In this document: positions 11,247-22,654 of the stretch, in pieces
Numbering within the stretch: the stretch's first letter is position 1
Layout: every line of letters starts with the position of its first letter
NCBI RefSeq assembly: GCF_003865135.1
Contig: NZ_BHZC01000001.1
Span: 4,898,001 to 4,962,000, forward strand
Direction: 5' to 3'
Length of the DNA stretch: 64,000 nucleotides
Origin: Streptomyces chrestomyceticus JCM 4735
GTDB lineage: Bacteria; Actinomycetota; Actinomycetes; Streptomycetales; Streptomycetaceae
Program-made: the position numbers and the translations under genes
The notes under the pieces: model-generated
The model's input: the letters and a program-made list of their open reading frames with translations, nothing else
Told to the model about the DNA's origin: nothing
Databases searched by the model: none

Positions 11247-12581
11247 TCAGCACATGGTGAGAAGGTGGTCGTCCAGTTCTGCTACGAAGCGTTCGCCGTG
11301 CCAGGGGCGGAGGGCGTGACGGGCTCTGCGGAGGCGCAGGGCGGGGACTCGGCCACCGGTGGCTGAGATTTCGTCGGCGCAGGTGTGCAGGAGCGCGGTG
11401 CCTGCGGCGGGGTCGCCCGAGCGGATGCGGGCGAGTGCCTGGTCAGTGGTGATGATCGCGCGTTGCAGGCGGTCGCGGGGCCGGGTGAGAGCTGCTGCCG
11501 CGCCGGCGAAGTGGGTTTCGGCCGTTGCGGCGTCTCCGGTGTGGAGAGTGCACAGGCCCTCGAAGCCCCGGAGATGGGCGGAGGAGAATCCCGCGTTCGA
11601 CGGGTCGTCCGTAGGCCCGTCGTCGATGTCGTACCGGGCCAGGGAGAGCGCGGTGAGCGCCTGGTGCCGATGGCCGGAGCGAGCGGCGATCTCGGCGTGC
11701 AGGGCGTGGGCGCGGCCGCGTACGGCGGGACTGTCTCCCGTTCGCGCGTCACGGACGGCGGCCTCCACGAGCGCGCGGGCGGCGTCGGTGCCGGGCGCGG
11801 AGTGGAGCGTGACGAGGGCGTGGCTCATGTGCACGACCGCGCGGCGCCATGTCGGGAGCCGGTCGGCGGCTTCCGTGGCTGCGGCGTACAGAGCACGCGA
11901 CGCGGCGTCGTCGTGTGTCTCGAAGGCGATGCGGCCGGCGAGGGTGAAGGTCTGTGCCGCGACGGTGTGCAGCCCGGGGAGCAGCGGGGCCGGGACGTCG
12001 CGGGTCAGGAGGCGTCGACAGGTCTCGACGACGGGCGAGAGGAGCAGGTGAAGGCGTACGAAGGGGAGCGAGCCCACGTGCTGGTTCGCGGTGTCGACTG
12101 CGGCGTGGAGGGTGTCGAGCAGGCCGGCGTCGGTGCGGCCGGGGTCCGCGAGGGCCCCGGAGACCGTCGCCTGGGTGTGCGGGCCGAGGAGGGCGAGCAG
12201 GCTTCCGTTCCCGGTGGTCACCGTGCGGGTGACCACGGTGCGCAGGTCGGCCAGTTGCCGGTCGCTCTCTCCGTGGTGAGCCAGGGCGGTGAGGAGTTCG
12301 GCGAAGTCACTGCCGGGGCCGAGCTGCGGGGTGCCGTCGGGGCCGCGTGCGTAGAGGTGCGCCAGCAGGAGTTGGTAGTGGTGGCCGGGCCGGACGGGTG
12401 CGGCGGAGTTCTCCCAGCGGGCGACGCTGCGTTGCACGCCGGTGGTGGGGGCGGCGAGCGGGAGGCCCAGCCTCGTGGCGGTGCCGGTCAGGGCTCGGGC
12501 CAGACCGGCCAGGGACCAGCCGCGGGACCTGCGCAAGCGCTTCAGCGTGCGGGCGCCGACGGCCGTGTCACGCGTATTCAT
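11247..12581 (-). CDS. XRE-family HTH regulator with TPR-like sensor domain
   Basis: 444 residues from the ATG at 12581; a GTG two codons upstream is an alternative. The N-terminus is a helix-turn-helix (TLKRLRRSRGWSLAGLARAL, then GVQRSVARWENS). The rest is Ala-rich helical repeats up to residue about 440 (ALYAAATEAADRLPTWRRAV, ARALVEAAVRDAR, GLCTLHTGDAATAETHFAGA), typical of Streptomyces regulators that combine an XRE domain with a TPR sensor. It lies 25 bases downstream of the SLOG gene on the same strand and probably shares its transcript. It may control the divergent SLOG/recombinase-like locus, which is inference from position. Confidence 0.8.
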   Translation of the reverse strand: MNTRDTAVGARTLKRLRRSRGWSLAGLARALTGTATRLGLPLAAPTTGVQRSVARWENSAAPVRPGHHYQLLLAHLYARGPDGTPQLGPGSDFAELLTALAHHGESDRQLADLRTVVTRTVTTGNGSLLALLGPHTQATVSGALADPGRTDAGLLDTLHAAVDTANQHVGSLPFVRLHLLLSPVVETCRRLLTRDVPAPLLPGLHTVAAQTFTLAGRIAFETHDDAASRALYAAATEAADRLPTWRRAVVHMSHALVTLHSAPGTDAARALVEAAVRDARTGDSPAVRGRAHALHAEIAARSGHRHQALTALSLARYDIDDGPTDDPSNAGFSSAHLRGFEGLCTLHTGDAATAETHFAGAAAALTRPRDRLQRAIITTDQALARIRSGDPAAGTALLHTCADEISATGGRVPALRLRRARHALRPWHGERFVAELDDHLLTMC

Positions 12582-12606
12582 GGGCACATGATGCCCGCGC
12601 GGAGCC

Positions 12607-13074
12607 TCAAGTCGGCACGACGAGACGGGGTTTGCCCAGGGAGGCCGTATAGTCGAGAGTTTGCCAGGTACCCGACGCGCGGGTCATGTCGTGTTGCCCT
12701 TCGAGTGGGAAGCCGATGGTCAGATCGCTTCGGTCCACCATCCATCGATTACGTGCGTGGTAGGCGGCGGGGTGGAGTTCGGGAGCCTGTAGTTCCACGA
12801 CTTCGGTGATACGGCTCCGGCACTGCGCAATGGCCTGTCGTGCCTCTTCCGGTTGTTGGGCGACGGTCACCGGCACCACCACGGTGATGGCGGAACGGGA
12901 GCGGGCTGCCAGCCACAGCAGGGCGAGGGAATCGATGCCTTTCGCGCCGCCGATGAAGAAGTGGGCCCGGGGGGCGGCGAAAGGGGCGAGGTAGGCGGAG
13001 AAGGCCGTCCTGTACCACTGGTCCGGGTGGTGGTCGGTGGAACGCGTACCGGTGATGGTGATGGATTCAGGCAT
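12607..13074 (-). CDS. SLOG-domain (DprA/YspA-like) nucleotide-binding protein
   Basis: 155 residues from an ATG with a GGAG site 7 bases upstream. SLOG-type motifs appear in order: an N-terminal ITITGTRSTDHH strand, FFIGGAKGIDSLALLWLA (glycine loop), ARNRWMVDRSDLTIGFP and ASGTWQTLDYTASLGKP. This is the arrangement of the DprA/LOG superfamily, whose members bind nucleotides, ssDNA or nucleotide-derived signals. It is a single domain with no fused effector. Stand-alone SLOG proteins occur in several proposed signalling and conflict systems. The gene is divergent from a serine-recombinase-like gene, with 63 bases between the starts, and is followed by an XRE/TPR regulator. Confidence 0.78.
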   Translation of the reverse strand: MPESITITGTRSTDHHPDQWYRTAFSAYLAPFAAPRAHFFIGGAKGIDSLALLWLAARSRSAITVVVPVTVAQQPEEARQAIAQCRSRITEVVELQAPELHPAAYHARNRWMVDRSDLTIGFPLEGQHDMTRASGTWQTLDYTASLGKPRLVVPT

Positions 13075-13137
13075 GATCAACTCCGTGTCGCAGGTTGTCG
13101 TCTGCCGTGCCCGCCGTGGCGGAGCTGAAATCGGTGC

Positions 13138-13587
13138 ATGGACACGAAAACATCGTCGTCGCGCGGTACGGCCGTCGGCAACGAGAACATCCGGATCGGT
13201 GCGGCGAGCCCGGACACGCCGCTCGTCTTCATCTACGACCGCAGCGCGACAAGGTCGCACAGTCTCCTGGATCTGCGCCTCGTCGGCTGCCAGAACTACG
13301 CCGCACGGTGGGGTTGGGAGGTGGCCGGTACATGGGTCGACTTCGGTGACCACGCCATCGGCGTCCAGCGGCCGCGATTCCGCGACCTCCTCGGCACCAT
13401 GCGGCCGCAGGCGGAACGGCGGAAAGTGATCTGCCTGGTGCACAACTGGGGGCGGCTGGCCCAGGACCACGAAGTGCGTCTGCAACAGCAGAAGTTGGTC
13501 GCGGAGGCAGGTGGCTGTACGGCGACGACTTTCGACGAGTCGGACGAACAGCGGCGGGTAGTGCTGTCCGGCGTGGGCTGCTGGTAG
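13138..13587 (+). CDS. Stand-alone serine-recombinase catalytic-domain-like protein, probably inactive
   Basis: 149 residues. The order IYDRSATRSHSLLDLR, CQNYAARWGWEVAGTWVD, QRPRFRDLLGTM, ICLVHNWGRLAQD and VAEAGG follows the N-terminal domain of serine resolvases (YxRVSTxxQ, GWxxxxxxxD, RPxxxxLL, VxxxDRLxRD). The position of the nucleophilic Ser reads Ala (Y-D-R-S-A-T), and the DRLxRD motif reads GRLAQD, so Asp and the second Arg are replaced. No DNA-binding or zinc-ribbon domain follows. This suggests a domesticated, non-catalytic fold. By-eye alignment limits certainty; a shifted register could put a Ser near the active site. Confidence 0.65.
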   Translation: MDTKTSSSRGTAVGNENIRIGAASPDTPLVFIYDRSATRSHSLLDLRLVGCQNYAARWGWEVAGTWVDFGDHAIGVQRPRFRDLLGTMRPQAERRKVICLVHNWGRLAQDHEVRLQQQKLVAEAGGCTATTFDESDEQRRVVLSGVGCW

Positions 13588-13614
13588 GGGCGGAGCCACG
13601 TGGAGGGGAAGTCC

Positions 13615-14082
13615 ATGGAAAACCCTGCTCGCGCGCTGCTGCCCGCAGCGGAATTCCTGGCCGTGAGCGACACCATCGCGACGGGGAACCGCGGAATGCC
13701 CCGGCTCACGGCGGAGCGCATTCTCGTACAGGCACTGGCATTCGTGGCGACGGCCGCCCGGTATCGGGGTGCGGCCATTGCGCCGTCCCGCGTCGTCGAC
13801 GAGGGCTGGCACGCGCTGATTCTGCATACGAAGTCCTATGCCGCGCTGTGCGACCGGCTCGGCGGATTCGTCCACCATTACCCGCAGCCGCCGGAACCGC
13901 GACGCCAGCCGCAAACGGTCATCGACCGTACGACGGCGCTCATGGGGGAGGCCGGATTCGTCGTCGACGGGGAATTGTGGCGTACGCCTGCCGAAGAACT
14001 CGTGGTGGTGGCCGCCGACTGCGGGCACACGCCGCCCAGCAGCGTGCCGAGGCGGAAGAAGGCCGCTTGCCCCGGCCACTGA
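13615..14082 (+). CDS. Uncharacterised protein with DUF1399/GRDP-like motif
   Basis: 155 residues. The ATG at 13615 has an AGGGG site 7 bases upstream and is preferred over the GTG at 13600. The central segment VVDEGWHALILHTKSYAALCDRLGGFVHHYP is written here only for position (about residues 60-90). Its key features are D-x-x-WH, the Tyr/Cys pair and the final HHxP, a pattern seen in glycine-rich-domain-protein (DUF1399-like) families. The helical N-terminus (ERILVQALAFVATAARYRG) is similar to those proteins. It begins 27 bases after the recombinase-like gene on the same strand, suggesting one operon. Function is unknown. The C-terminus is basic (RRKKAACPGH). Confidence 0.65.
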   Translation: MENPARALLPAAEFLAVSDTIATGNRGMPRLTAERILVQALAFVATAARYRGAAIAPSRVVDEGWHALILHTKSYAALCDRLGGFVHHYPQPPEPRRQPQTVIDRTTALMGEAGFVVDGELWRTPAEELVVVAADCGHTPPSSVPRRKKAACPGH

Positions 14083-14188
14083 GGGGATTTGTCGTTCCCC
14101 CGCCGGAGGGCGGTGACAAGGACTGAATGAGTGGGCGGCCGGGCCCGGGCGCGGGTCCGGCCGCCACAACTCGTCGTTCTGCTCCGGC

Positions 14189-18802: not shown

Positions 18803-18965
18803 ATGCAGGTCGATGGGTCACCTGGCCCATCGGACGCCAGCGACGGCGCCAAGGGAGGAAGCCCGGTGGAAACCCGGCGCGGTCCCGCCACTGTGAGCCC
18901 GGCCACCGCCGGGCGAGCCAGGAACTCCCGCCGTCCGTGACACCGCCCGGGGCGCGGACCCCGAG
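18803..18965 (+). ncRNA. Cobalamin (AdoCbl) riboswitch
   Basis: The conserved B12 box core GCCACTG is at 18887-18893, preceded by the typical purine-rich AAGGGAGGAAGCCCGGTG stretch and GAAACCCGGCGCGGTCCC, and followed by the pairing GCCCGGCCACCGCCGGGCGAG region and GCCAGGAACTC. The element ends about 18 bases before the cobN ATG. It should switch off cobN expression when adenosylcobalamin is abundant. A TACTAT box at 18799-18804 may be the -10 element. No equivalent was seen before cobL or cobK. Confidence 0.92.
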
Positions 18966-18982: not shown

Positions 18983-21900
18983 ATGATCCTGCTGCTGTCG
19001 ACGTCCGACACCGACCTGCTGAGCGCCCGCGCGGCCGCCGGTCCCGTGCCGTACCGGCTCGCCAACCCCGCCCGTCTCGACCTCGCCGAGCTGCCCGCCC
19101 TGCTGGACGGCGCCGACCTGGTCGTCGTCCGTCTCCTCGGCGGCCTGCGCGCCTGGCAGGAGGGCCTGGACCAGCTCCTGGCCGCCGACCAGACCCGCCC
19201 CGTCGTGGTGCTCACCGGCGAACAGGCGCCGGACGCGCAGCTCATGGAGGCGTCCACCGTCCCCATCGGCATCGCGGCCGAGGCCCACGCCTACCTGGCG
19301 CACGGCGGCCCCGCCAACCTGGACCAGCTCGCCCGCTTCCTGTCCGACACCGTGCTGCTGACCGGCCACGGCTTCGAGCCGCCCGCCGCCGCGCCCTCCT
19401 GGGGCCACCTGGAGCGCTCCAAGCACCTGGCGGCCGAGGCGCGTACGGGCGCGGAGGTCGTGGCCCGTACGGACGACACGGGCGCCGCGACCGGCCCGCT
19501 GGTCGCCGTGCTCTACTACCGCGCCCACCACATGAGCGGCAACACCGGCTTCGTCGAGTCGCTGTGCGAGCGGATCGAGGAGGCCGGCGGCCGCCCGATG
19601 CCGCTGTTCGTGGCCTCGCTGCGGGCGCCCGAGCCGGAGCTGATCGAGGAGCTGCGGGCCGCCGACGCGATCGTGACGACCGTGCTGGCGGCGGGCGGCA
19701 CCAAGCCCGCCGAGGCGTCGGCCGGCGGTGACGACGAGTCCTGGGACGCGGGCGCGCTGGCCGCGCTGGACGTGCCGATCCTCCAGGCCCTGTGCCTGAC
19801 CGGGCCGCGCAGCGCCTGGGAGGAGAACGACGAGGGCCTGTCGCCGCTGGACGCGGCCAGCCAGATCGCGGTGCCCGAGTTCGACGGCCGGCTGATCACC
19901 GTTCCGTTCTCCTTCAAGGAGACCGACGAGGACGGCCTGCCGGTGTACGTCGCCGACCCCGAGCGCGCCGCCCGGGTCGCCGGCATCGCCGTCCGTCACG
20001 CCCGGCTGCGCCACATCGCGCCCGCCGACAAGCGCCTGGCGCTGGTGCTGTCCGCGTACCCGACCAAGCACTCCCGCATCGGCAACGCGGTGGGCCTGGA
20101 CACCCCGGCCAGCGCCGTCGCCCTGCTGCGCCGCCTGCGTGAAGAGGGCTACGACTACGGGGACGAGCCCGTGCCCGGCCTGGAGTCCGGCGACGGCGAC
20201 GAGCTGATCTACGCGCTGATCGAGGCGGGCGGCCACGACCAGGAGTGGCTGACCGAGGAGCAGCTCGCCCGCAACCCCGTCCGCATCCCGGCCGCCGACT
20301 ACAAGCGCTGGTACGGCACGCTGCCGCAGGAGCTGCGCGAGCAGGTCGAGGAGCACTGGGGCCCGCCGCCCGGCGAGATGTTCGTGGACCGCAGTCAGAA
20401 CCCGGACGGCGACATCGTGCTGGCGGCCCTGCGCCGCGGCAATCTGCTCATCCTCATCCAGCCGCCGCGCGGTTTCGGCGAGAACCCGATCGCGATCTAC
20501 CACGACCCCGATCTGCCGCCGTCGCACCACTACCTGGCCGCCTACCGCTGGATCGCCGCCTCCCAGGAGGACGGCGGCTTCGGCGCCGACGCCATGGTCC
20601 ACCTGGGCAAGCACGGCAACCTGGAGTGGCTGCCCGGCAAGAACGCCGGCCTGTCCGCCGCCTGCGGCCCGGACGCGGCCCTCGGCGACCTGCCGCTGAT
20701 CTACCCGTTCCTGGTCAACGACCCGGGCGAGGGCACCCAGGCCAAGCGCCGGGTGCACGCCACGCTGGTCGACCACCTCGTACCGCCGATGGCCCGCGCC
20801 GAGTCGTACGGCGACATCGCGCGCCTGGAGCAGTTGCTGGACGAGTACGCGGCGATCTCCGCCATGGACCCGGCCAAGCTGCCCGCGATCCGCGCCCAGA
20901 TCTGGACGCTGATCCAGGCCGCGAAGCTGCACCACGACCTCGGCCTGGAGGAGCGCCCGGACGACGAGGGCTTCGACGACTTCCTGCTGCACGTCGACGG
21001 CTGGCTGTGCGAGGTCAAGGACGCGCAGATCCGCGACGGCCTGCACGTCCTCGGCGGCGCGCCCGCGGGTGAGGCGCGCGTCAACCTCGTGCTCGCCATC
21101 CTGCGCGCCCGGCAGATCTGGGGCGGTACGTCCTCGCTCCCGGGCCTGCGCGAGGCGCTGGGCCTGGACGAGTCGGCCGCGACCCGGACGACCGCCGACG
21201 CGGTCGAGGAGCAGGCCCGCGGCCTGGTGCAGGCCATGGACGACGCCGGGTGGGACCTGGCGGCCGTCGAGCGGGTCACCGCCGAGCTGCCCGAGGCACA
21301 GCGCGAGCCGGTGGCGGCGATCCTCGCCTTCGCCGCCCGCGAGGTCGTGCCGCGCCTCGCCGCCACCACCGACGAGATCGACCACGCCGTGCACGCGCTG
21401 GCCGGCGGCTTCGTCCCGGCGGGCCCGTCCGGATCGCCGCTGCGCGGCCTGGTCAACGTCCTGCCGACCGGCCGTAACTTCTACTCCGTCGACCCCAAGG
21501 CCGTCCCCAGCAAGCTGGCCTGGGAGACCGGCCAGGCCCTCGCCGACAGCCTCCTGGAGCGCTACCGCACCGACCACGGCGACTGGCCGACCTCGGTGGG
21601 CCTGTCCCTGTGGGGTACGAGCGCGATGCGTACCTCCGGTGACGACGTGGCCGAGGCGATGGCCCTGCTCGGCATCCGGCCTGTGTGGGACGACGCCTCG
21701 CGCCGGGTGACCGGCCTGGAGCCCATCCCGGCGGACGAACTGGGGCGCCCGCGCGTCGATGTGACGCTGCGTATCTCCGGCTTCTTCCGCGACGCGTTCC
21801 CGCACGTCATCGGCCTGCTGGACGACGCCGTACGGCTCGCCGCGTCCCTGGACGAGCCCGCCGACGTCAACTACGTCCGCGCGCACGCCCAGGCCGACCT

Positions 21901-22654
21901 GGCCGCGCACGGCGACGAGCGCCGCGCCACCACCCGCATCTTCGGCTCCCGCCCCGGCACGTACGGCGCGGGCCTGCTCCAGCTCATCGACTCGCGTGAC
22001 TGGCGTACGGACGCGGACCTCGCCGAGGTCTACACGGTGTGGGGCGGTTACGCGTACGGGCGCGGCCTGGAGGGCTGCCCTGCGCGCGAGGAGATGGAGA
22101 CCGCTTACAAGCGGATCGCGGTGGCGGCGAAGAACACCGACACCCGCGAGCACGACATCGCCGACTCGGACGACTACTTCCAGTACCACGGCGGCATGGT
22201 CGCGACCGTGCGCGCGCTCAAGGGCACCGCGCCCGAGGCGTACATCGGCGACTCCACCCGTCCCGAGACAGTCCGCACCCGCACGCTGGTCGAGGAGACC
22301 TCCCGGGTCTTCCGTGCCCGCGTGGTCAACCCGCGCTGGATCGAGGCGATGCGCCGCCACGGCTACAAGGGCGCCTTCGAGCTGGCCGCGACCGTCGACT
22401 ACCTGTTCGGGTACGACGCCACGACCGGCGTCGTCGCCGACTGGATGTACGACAAGCTCGCCCAGACGTACGTCCTGGACCCGGAGAACCGCGCCTTCCT
22501 CCAGGAGGCCAACCCCTGGGCCCTGCACGGCATCGCCGAGCGCCTCCTGGAGGCGGAGTCGCGCGGCATGTGGGCCGAGCCGGACAAGGAGACGCTGACG
22601 GCGCTCCGGGAGGCGTTCCTGGAGACCGAGGGCGACCTGGAGGAGAAGAGCTGA
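18983..22654 (+). CDS. cobN: Cobaltochelatase large subunit
   Basis: 1223 residues, the expected length for CobN. Recognisable segments include ALVLSAYPTKHSRIGNAVGLDTPAS (key: TKHSRIGNAVGLDTPAS, about residues 360-380), VHLGKHGNLEWLPGKNAG (about 540) and GVLF-type C-terminal repeats through WGGYAYGRG. CobN is the ATP-dependent chelatase subunit that inserts cobalt into hydrogenobyrinic acid a,c-diamide, related to magnesium chelatase H. Its AAA+ partners (CobS/T or ChlI/D type) are not in this window. Transcription reads through a cobalamin riboswitch, and a strong hairpin follows the stop. Confidence 0.95.
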   Translation: MILLLSTSDTDLLSARAAAGPVPYRLANPARLDLAELPALLDGADLVVVRLLGGLRAWQEGLDQLLAADQTRPVVVLTGEQAPDAQLMEASTVPIGIAAEAHAYLAHGGPANLDQLARFLSDTVLLTGHGFEPPAAAPSWGHLERSKHLAAEARTGAEVVARTDDTGAATGPLVAVLYYRAHHMSGNTGFVESLCERIEEAGGRPMPLFVASLRAPEPELIEELRAADAIVTTVLAAGGTKPAEASAGGDDESWDAGALAALDVPILQALCLTGPRSAWEENDEGLSPLDAASQIAVPEFDGRLITVPFSFKETDEDGLPVYVADPERAARVAGIAVRHARLRHIAPADKRLALVLSAYPTKHSRIGNAVGLDTPASAVALLRRLREEGYDYGDEPVPGLESGDGDELIYALIEAGGHDQEWLTEEQLARNPVRIPAADYKRWYGTLPQELREQVEEHWGPPPGEMFVDRSQNPDGDIVLAALRRGNLLILIQPPRGFGENPIAIYHDPDLPPSHHYLAAYRWIAASQEDGGFGADAMVHLGKHGNLEWLPGKNAGLSAACGPDAALGDLPLIYPFLVNDPGEGTQAKRRVHATLVDHLVPPMARAESYGDIARLEQLLDEYAAISAMDPAKLPAIRAQIWTLIQAAKLHHDLGLEERPDDEGFDDFLLHVDGWLCEVKDAQIRDGLHVLGGAPAGEARVNLVLAILRARQIWGGTSSLPGLREALGLDESAATRTTADAVEEQARGLVQAMDDAGWDLAAVERVTAELPEAQREPVAAILAFAAREVVPRLAATTDEIDHAVHALAGGFVPAGPSGSPLRGLVNVLPTGRNFYSVDPKAVPSKLAWETGQALADSLLERYRTDHGDWPTSVGLSLWGTSAMRTSGDDVAEAMALLGIRPVWDDASRRVTGLEPIPADELGRPRVDVTLRISGFFRDAFPHVIGLLDDAVRLAASLDEPADVNYVRAHAQADLAAHGDERRATTRIFGSRPGTYGAGLLQLIDSRDWRTDADLAEVYTVWGGYAYGRGLEGCPAREEMETAYKRIAVAAKNTDTREHDIADSDDYFQYHGGMVATVRALKGTAPEAYIGDSTRPETVRTRTLVEETSRVFRARVVNPRWIEAMRRHGYKGAFELAATVDYLFGYDATTGVVADWMYDKLAQTYVLDPENRAFLQEANPWALHGIAERLLEAESRGMWAEPDKETLTALREAFLETEGDLEEKS

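Follow-up and report, generated by a model that had tools for sequence, protein, structure and literature searches.

Organization of the locus

In this report we describe a compact four-gene locus of Streptomyces chrestomyceticus JCM 4735, located in a stretch of 64,000 nucleotides (the window; contig NZ_BHZC01000001.1, positions 4,898,001 to 4,962,000) of a genome that forms one 9.38-Mb contig. The locus encodes an XRE-type regulator and a SLOG-fold protein on one side of a divergent intergenic region, and a serine-recombinase-like protein (here, the pseudo-recombinase) and a small protein (the fourth gene) on the other (Table 1). The compact arrangement around a 63-base gap, to which an earlier note on this DNA had drawn attention, was recovered in full: all four open reading frames (ORFs) were found at the same positions and were also called as genes by a purpose-written codon-usage caller. 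Two features went beyond that note, namely a conserved 19-nt direct-repeat element in front of the SLOG gene and the setting of the locus, whose flanking genes we take to be cobalamin-biosynthesis genes. In the relative listings, the named relatives of the window proteins come from Streptomyces. Loci and genomes used for comparison are cited by our handles (L and G numbers, respectively).

Table 1. Coordinates of the features of the locus (positions in the window)
Feature	Position	Strand	Remarks
XRE-type regulator with TPR-like C-terminal part, NsdA family, 444-446 aa	11247..12587	-	Likely ATG start at 12581, preferred by the codon-usage caller
SLOG-fold protein, YpsA/DprA/ShosA-like, 155 aa	12607..13074	-	Co-directional with the XRE gene, 25 bp upstream of its ATG start
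Divergent intergenic region, 63 bp	13075..13137	none	From the sequence and an alignment of 23 loci
Conserved operator-like element, CGACAACCTGCGACACGGA on the SLOG strand	13082..13100	-	10-bp direct repeat, half-sites 13096-13100 and 13086-13090
Pseudo-recombinase, 149 aa, serine-recombinase catalytic core without DNA-binding domain	13138..13587	+	Nucleophile Ser replaced by Ala37
Fourth gene, small protein, 155 aa, motif VDEGWHALILHT...FVHH	13615..14082	+	GTG at 13600 is an alternative start
Remnant of a small downstream gene, out of frame; 43-50 aa and open in relatives	14022..14126	+	Frame-3 translation ...RAEAEEGRLPRPLRGFVVPPPEGGDKD resembles a 46-aa ORF of L004

The SLOG-XRE unit

The SLOG assignment made in the earlier note was borne out by the predicted model, which has a Rossmann-like SLOG fold; Foldseek and VIA-align results, here and below, rest on predicted models. 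Both the fold and the motifs GTR, GGAxGID and RN are those of YpsA, DprA and ShosA proteins, but the window protein is a stand-alone chain, shorter than DprA and ShosA, and its family is mostly tied to a regulator gene of its own. Its score against Pfam DNA_processg_A (22 bits) stays under the cut-off of 29.6, and many of the listed relatives carry the PF02481 label. Among 821 relatives counted, the named ones within the best 120 belong to Streptomyces, Nonomuraea and a few related actinomycetes.

The XRE protein reached 113.7 bits with NCBIfam NF053720 (NsdA_fam_reg; 113.5 bits in the genome-wide scan), above the curated cut-off of 75, and belongs to the NsdA family as a distant paralog, the best match of the same genome scoring 484.4 bits. 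In the genome, 23 matches pass the cut-off individually; in part these are fragments of one and the same gene, and the total corresponds to about 20 genes. In 19 regions with other NsdA-family matches there is no SLOG of this family.

In the genus survey, 295 Streptomyces genomes were searched with profiles of the XRE protein (E<=1e-20) and of the SLOG protein (E<=1e-5), with the 5-14 best candidates per genome being scored. The XRE profile matched 21 genomes and the SLOG profile 25, one of which (G006) was weak and left out. By coordinates, a co-directional XRE gene directly follows SLOG in 19 of the 25 clear SLOG matches (24 genomes), the remaining ones being those of G031, G088, G138, G154, G247 and the second copy of G073; conversely, the XRE gene adjoins SLOG in 19/21 XRE-profile genomes (exceptions G081 and G166). 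In a class sample of 296 genomes we noticed four SLOG matches, three from Streptomyces and one from another family (G527), where the pair persists with the XRE gene behind SLOG. SLOG and XRE thus form a conserved pair of genes, whose order is conserved too and which have an upstream element in common.

Some SLOG copies without the XRE gene (L108, L110) sit next to GNAT and HD genes, in L110 also NUDIX, hinting at a nucleotide-metabolism setting for SLOG. Of the other families, a small protein (NPL) was detected by profile in 8/20 SLOG loci and faces SLOG on the maps; for enrichment at SLOG loci the p values, uncorrected for the 16 families, were 0.003 for NPL, 0.008 for WWL, another small family, and 0.047 for PIMT-like genes.

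Direct-repeat element upstream of SLOG

The alignment of 23 loci gave the consensus TGACAACCTATGACACGGA immediately upstream of SLOG, consisting of two TGACA half-sites 10 bp apart. The element is present with 0-4 mismatches in 23 Streptomyces SLOG-XRE loci (one mismatch in L025), from which the consensus was itself derived; SLOG loci without the XRE gene are an independent test, and there it was absent in 6/6, with 8-10 mismatches as at most random positions. G153, whose SLOG is truncated, is not included in these counts. In G527 it differs from the consensus at 6 positions, with TGACA-N5-TGACA kept at about the same place. At some loci the element can be read in frame with SLOG and its third codon positions hardly vary, which indicates constraint on DNA or RNA and not on protein.

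The genus-wide scan gave at least 12 exact matches to YGACAACCTRYGACACG, and because the 12 listed all lie just upstream of SLOG, the control appears to be local. With one mismatch allowed, the 17-nt pattern occurs in 122/295 genomes, mostly away from SLOG; such sites look like background, and a global regulon was therefore rejected. The only other close match in the window genome (3679953) falls inside a called gene (L150:2850-3161).

The simplest reading of this sequence pattern is that the element is the operator of the XRE protein. There are precedents. The XRE protein WhiJ9 binds, within a divergent promoter, direct repeats that share a 10-nt consensus (PMC10294661), and the WhiJ-BldB-AbaA (iosA-whiJ9-bldB9) paralog loci of Streptomyces likewise combine a lineage-expanded XRE-type regulator with small partner genes. 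They differ from the present loci in that the partners recognised here are SLOG, the pseudo-recombinase and DUF6415 and the regulator is of the NsdA family. An NsdA-family protein binds promoters in chromatin immunoprecipitation and electrophoretic mobility shift assays (PMC12243394).

A general operator for all loci with XRE and pseudo-recombinase genes was dropped as a candidate, as the intergenic sequences of 24 of them, compared by eye, displayed similarities within subgroups only. An inverted repeat, GTCGGTGA-N8-TCACCGAC, is shared by four loci (L090, L093, L094, L095), where it directly precedes the start of the pseudo-recombinase gene and might be the operator for another subgroup of XRE proteins.

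A pseudo-recombinase linked to XRE/TPR regulators

The description of the third gene as a degenerate recombinase reduced to its catalytic domain proved accurate. The predicted model has the serine-recombinase (Resolvase domain) fold, shared with the catalytic domain of large serine integrases of the TP901-1 type, but unlike them the protein has lost the nucleophile and ends at the catalytic core, followed by a short stretch in which no DNA-binding domain was found. The nucleophile position is Ala in 49/51 sequences of one alignment (A2) and 65/69 of another, overlapping one (A6), where a single sequence has Ser. Three arginines, which hold the scissile phosphate in active serine recombinases, are invariant. 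Since they are kept despite the loss of both the nucleophile and the DNA-binding domain, the pseudo-recombinase may still bind a phosphate-bearing ligand or act as an adaptor.

XRE or NsdA-type genes were found at 32/41 pseudo-recombinase loci and at 1/20 control regions (p = 4e-8). The 41 loci comprise the window, L003, 21/22 loci of the first set (L025, a residual match, was dropped) and 18/20 of the second set (without the duplicates L086 and L101); two strong matches of G050 (C958, C975) are not among them. The first 23 loci covered up to 17 kb of sequence and the controls about 12 kb, and the hmmsearch profiles were seeded mostly from the same loci and iterated once, so XRE genes of the controls may be detected less well. 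The nine loci without an XRE profile match include L008, where XRE was found by six-frame search, L092 (L038) with an XRE-like ORF, and L021 and L023 with what look by eye like partial XRE/TPR genes. NUDIX, HAD, HD, PIMT-like and S-adenosyl methyltransferase genes were not enriched at the 41 loci. The pseudo-recombinase matches three plasmid records, in one of which it adjoins DUF6415 and a divergent gene annotated as a Tat pathway signal protein.

The earlier note also supposed that the four genes act together and asked for their co-occurrence and order in Streptomyces. This holds for the SLOG-XRE unit with its element and for the linkage of the pseudo-recombinase to XRE/TPR regulators, but not for one fixed four-gene system: SLOG occurs at 6/41 pseudo-recombinase loci, the fourth gene at 8/41, and the pseudo-recombinase lies beside SLOG in 2/24 clear-SLOG genomes of the survey (the window genome and G048), the fair figure, as the set of 20 SLOG loci with a count of 0/20 left out these two. 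The four-gene set is rare among the loci compared. Streptomyces sp. CB02923 (L004) has all four genes at the corresponding place, the fourth being truncated, and SLOG is divergent from the pseudo-recombinase arm there as well as in L008, L010, L011 and L084, the latter four keeping this divergence although their flanks differ from those of the window. Between the window and L004, the ratio of nonsynonymous to synonymous substitution rates was 0.34 for XRE, 0.43 for SLOG, 0.21 for the pseudo-recombinase and 0.13 for the fourth gene (first 66 codons, owing to the truncation), values consistent with purifying selection on all four.

A candidate cis-controlled regulatory cassette

What the analysis shows is the set of genes, their predicted folds, the missing serine, the linkage and the conserved element. 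These results are best accommodated by a small regulatory cassette under cis control, a reading to which we assign a probability of about 0.55. From them we infer binding of the element by XRE, nucleotide sensing by SLOG and every protein contact, as follows. The NsdA-family XRE/TPR protein would be the DNA-binding switch. Bound to the 10-bp direct repeat in front of SLOG, it would regulate the SLOG-XRE operon to which its own gene belongs and also, over the 63-bp divergent promoter, the arm on the other side. SLOG would be the sensor, with a nucleotide-like ligand in a pocket of DprA/YpsA type altering XRE activity. The pseudo-recombinase would serve as a partner protein rather than a recombinase, binding a phosphate-bearing ligand or acting as an adaptor for the regulator, and the fourth gene might be an accessory output.

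Several points weigh against this reading. The position of the element, at the start of SLOG, would also allow an effect on translation instead of XRE binding. SLOG and the pseudo-recombinase are usually found in separate loci, and few cases thus speak for a shared pathway. G007, G009, G055, G153 and G184 carry a broken or partial XRE gene, which suggests that the pair is often being lost. In the window, the small ORF after the fourth gene is out of frame and the SLOG-facing NPL gene is missing, and the divergent arm therefore looks partly decayed.

More tentatively, Streptomyces may have recruited the catalytic core of a serine recombinase as a pseudoenzyme that has expanded in this lineage and partners XRE/TPR regulators; in one branch, a conserved direct-repeat switch would couple it to SLOG as the nucleotide sensor gating the regulator. 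If true, such loci would represent a class of nucleotide-responsive transcription switch not described before. Neither a SLOG-XRE pair nor a recombinase-derived XRE partner was found described in the titles and abstract beginnings of open-licence literature, in line with the earlier impression that no known system has such composition. Streptomyces genomes hold many XRE/TPR regulators, the window genome alone having some 20 genes of the NsdA family. The locus is a testable case, with a compact element of known sequence, one regulator, a candidate sensor whose fold is known to bind ligands and, as a possible partner, a former recombinase; the SLOG ligand, once identified, would reveal the signal to which one branch of these regulators responds. 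A dead recombinase core standing repeatedly beside transcription regulators would be an uncommon case of a DNA-cutting enzyme turned regulatory partner.

Alternative explanations

It is unlikely that the genes are unrelated and became neighbours by chance in a variable stretch of the cobalamin region. The rarity of the four-gene set and the mostly separate SLOG-XRE and pseudo-recombinase loci fit such an origin, but the conserved pairing and element, the association of the pseudo-recombinase with XRE/TPR genes well above control and the recurrent divergence in the five loci named above speak against it.

We find it improbable that the locus is an anti-phage or abortive-infection module, in which SLOG would sense an infection-made nucleotide signal, as in ThsA, or be a ShosA-like antitoxin, with the divergent genes as effectors. 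The PADLOC ShosA model does match SLOG weakly (15.9 bits, E 0.0015) and the folds are similar, but the other three proteins had no PADLOC match at E<=0.1, and SLOG is equally close in fold to YpsA and DprA, which are not known as defence proteins. By eye, no nuclease, NADase or phosphoribosyltransferase partner was recognised on the maps, the neighbours not having been scanned against PADLOC. ShosTA has its phosphoribosyltransferase toxin partner next door, while no ShosT-like partner was recognised by eye among the neighbours here (these were not scanned for it). By tblastn (E<=1e-5), neither SLOG nor the pseudo-recombinase matched any of 50,697 phage records, and SLOG matched none of 72,556 plasmid records. 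With the weak ShosA match and the lack of phage matches, defence was rejected as the principal explanation.

A toxin-antitoxin-like pair, with the pseudo-recombinase or SLOG as toxin, is quite improbable. Small partners beside XRE genes in a patchy paralog family do recall the XRE-DUF397 pairs (Scr1/Scr2), which have many paralogs per genome and for which such a status was once proposed (PMC10364602, PMC6262351); the same two papers, however, present these pairs as regulating antibiotic production and differentiation. Among the locus proteins no toxin fold was recognised, and none of the four matches DUF397 (Pfam). In L004, an XRE gene with two presumably DUF397-like ORFs lies nearby.

Least credible is a pseudo-recombinase that still acts on DNA by joining an active serine recombinase from another locus, in which it would be a dominant-negative or an architectural subunit: the intact catalytic fold, the invariant arginines and a full-length serine-recombinase-like gene seen by eye nearby in L017 are compatible with it, but the protein lacks a DNA-binding domain, and no serine recombinase was recognised beside it in the window (neighbours at other loci were not scanned for recombinases).

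The fourth gene and neighbouring parts

The fourth gene had been labelled DUF1399-like, which was not upheld: 0/8 family members match DUF1399/GRDP in Pfam at E<=1. Nor was a solved-structure relative found, the best hit (transketolase, E 0.99) being taken as chance. In an alignment of seven relatives D62, G64, W65, H66 and L68-T72 are invariant. By profile the family is present at the eight pseudo-recombinase loci counted above and at 0/20 controls (p = 0.044, uncorrected), and additionally in L018. An ORF of 46-50 aa follows the fourth gene in L004, L030 and L042, and small ORFs of 43-50 aa occur in these and in L014. In L008 and L011, as in the open frame of L010, NPL and DUF6415 form a fusion that is followed by the pseudo-recombinase. 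The four-gene composition thus seems to be one combination drawn from a shared set of parts that centre on XRE/TPR regulators.

Around other NsdA-family regions of the window genome, NUDIX genes recur (L155, L157, L158, L162), L165 has a copy of the fourth-gene family beside another NsdA-family gene, and L152 has near its NsdA match a set with PIMT-like genes that we take to be of the ATP-grasp type associated with ribosomally synthesized and post-translationally modified peptides (RiPPs). Small accessory cassettes headed by NsdA paralogs may thus be frequent. Genes for PIMT-like methyltransferases are found close to these regulators in L014 (8664-9841), L072 (3-496) and L077 (22-711), the last resembling TIGR04188 (208 bits, under its cut-off of 380); in L014 and L072 they are adjoined by short ORFs with KHGGAPSDKPWTPP, possible RiPP precursors. 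In the window itself, a cobalamin riboswitch (RF00174, 37.7 bits) lies at 18855-18927, upstream of a large gene (18983-22654).
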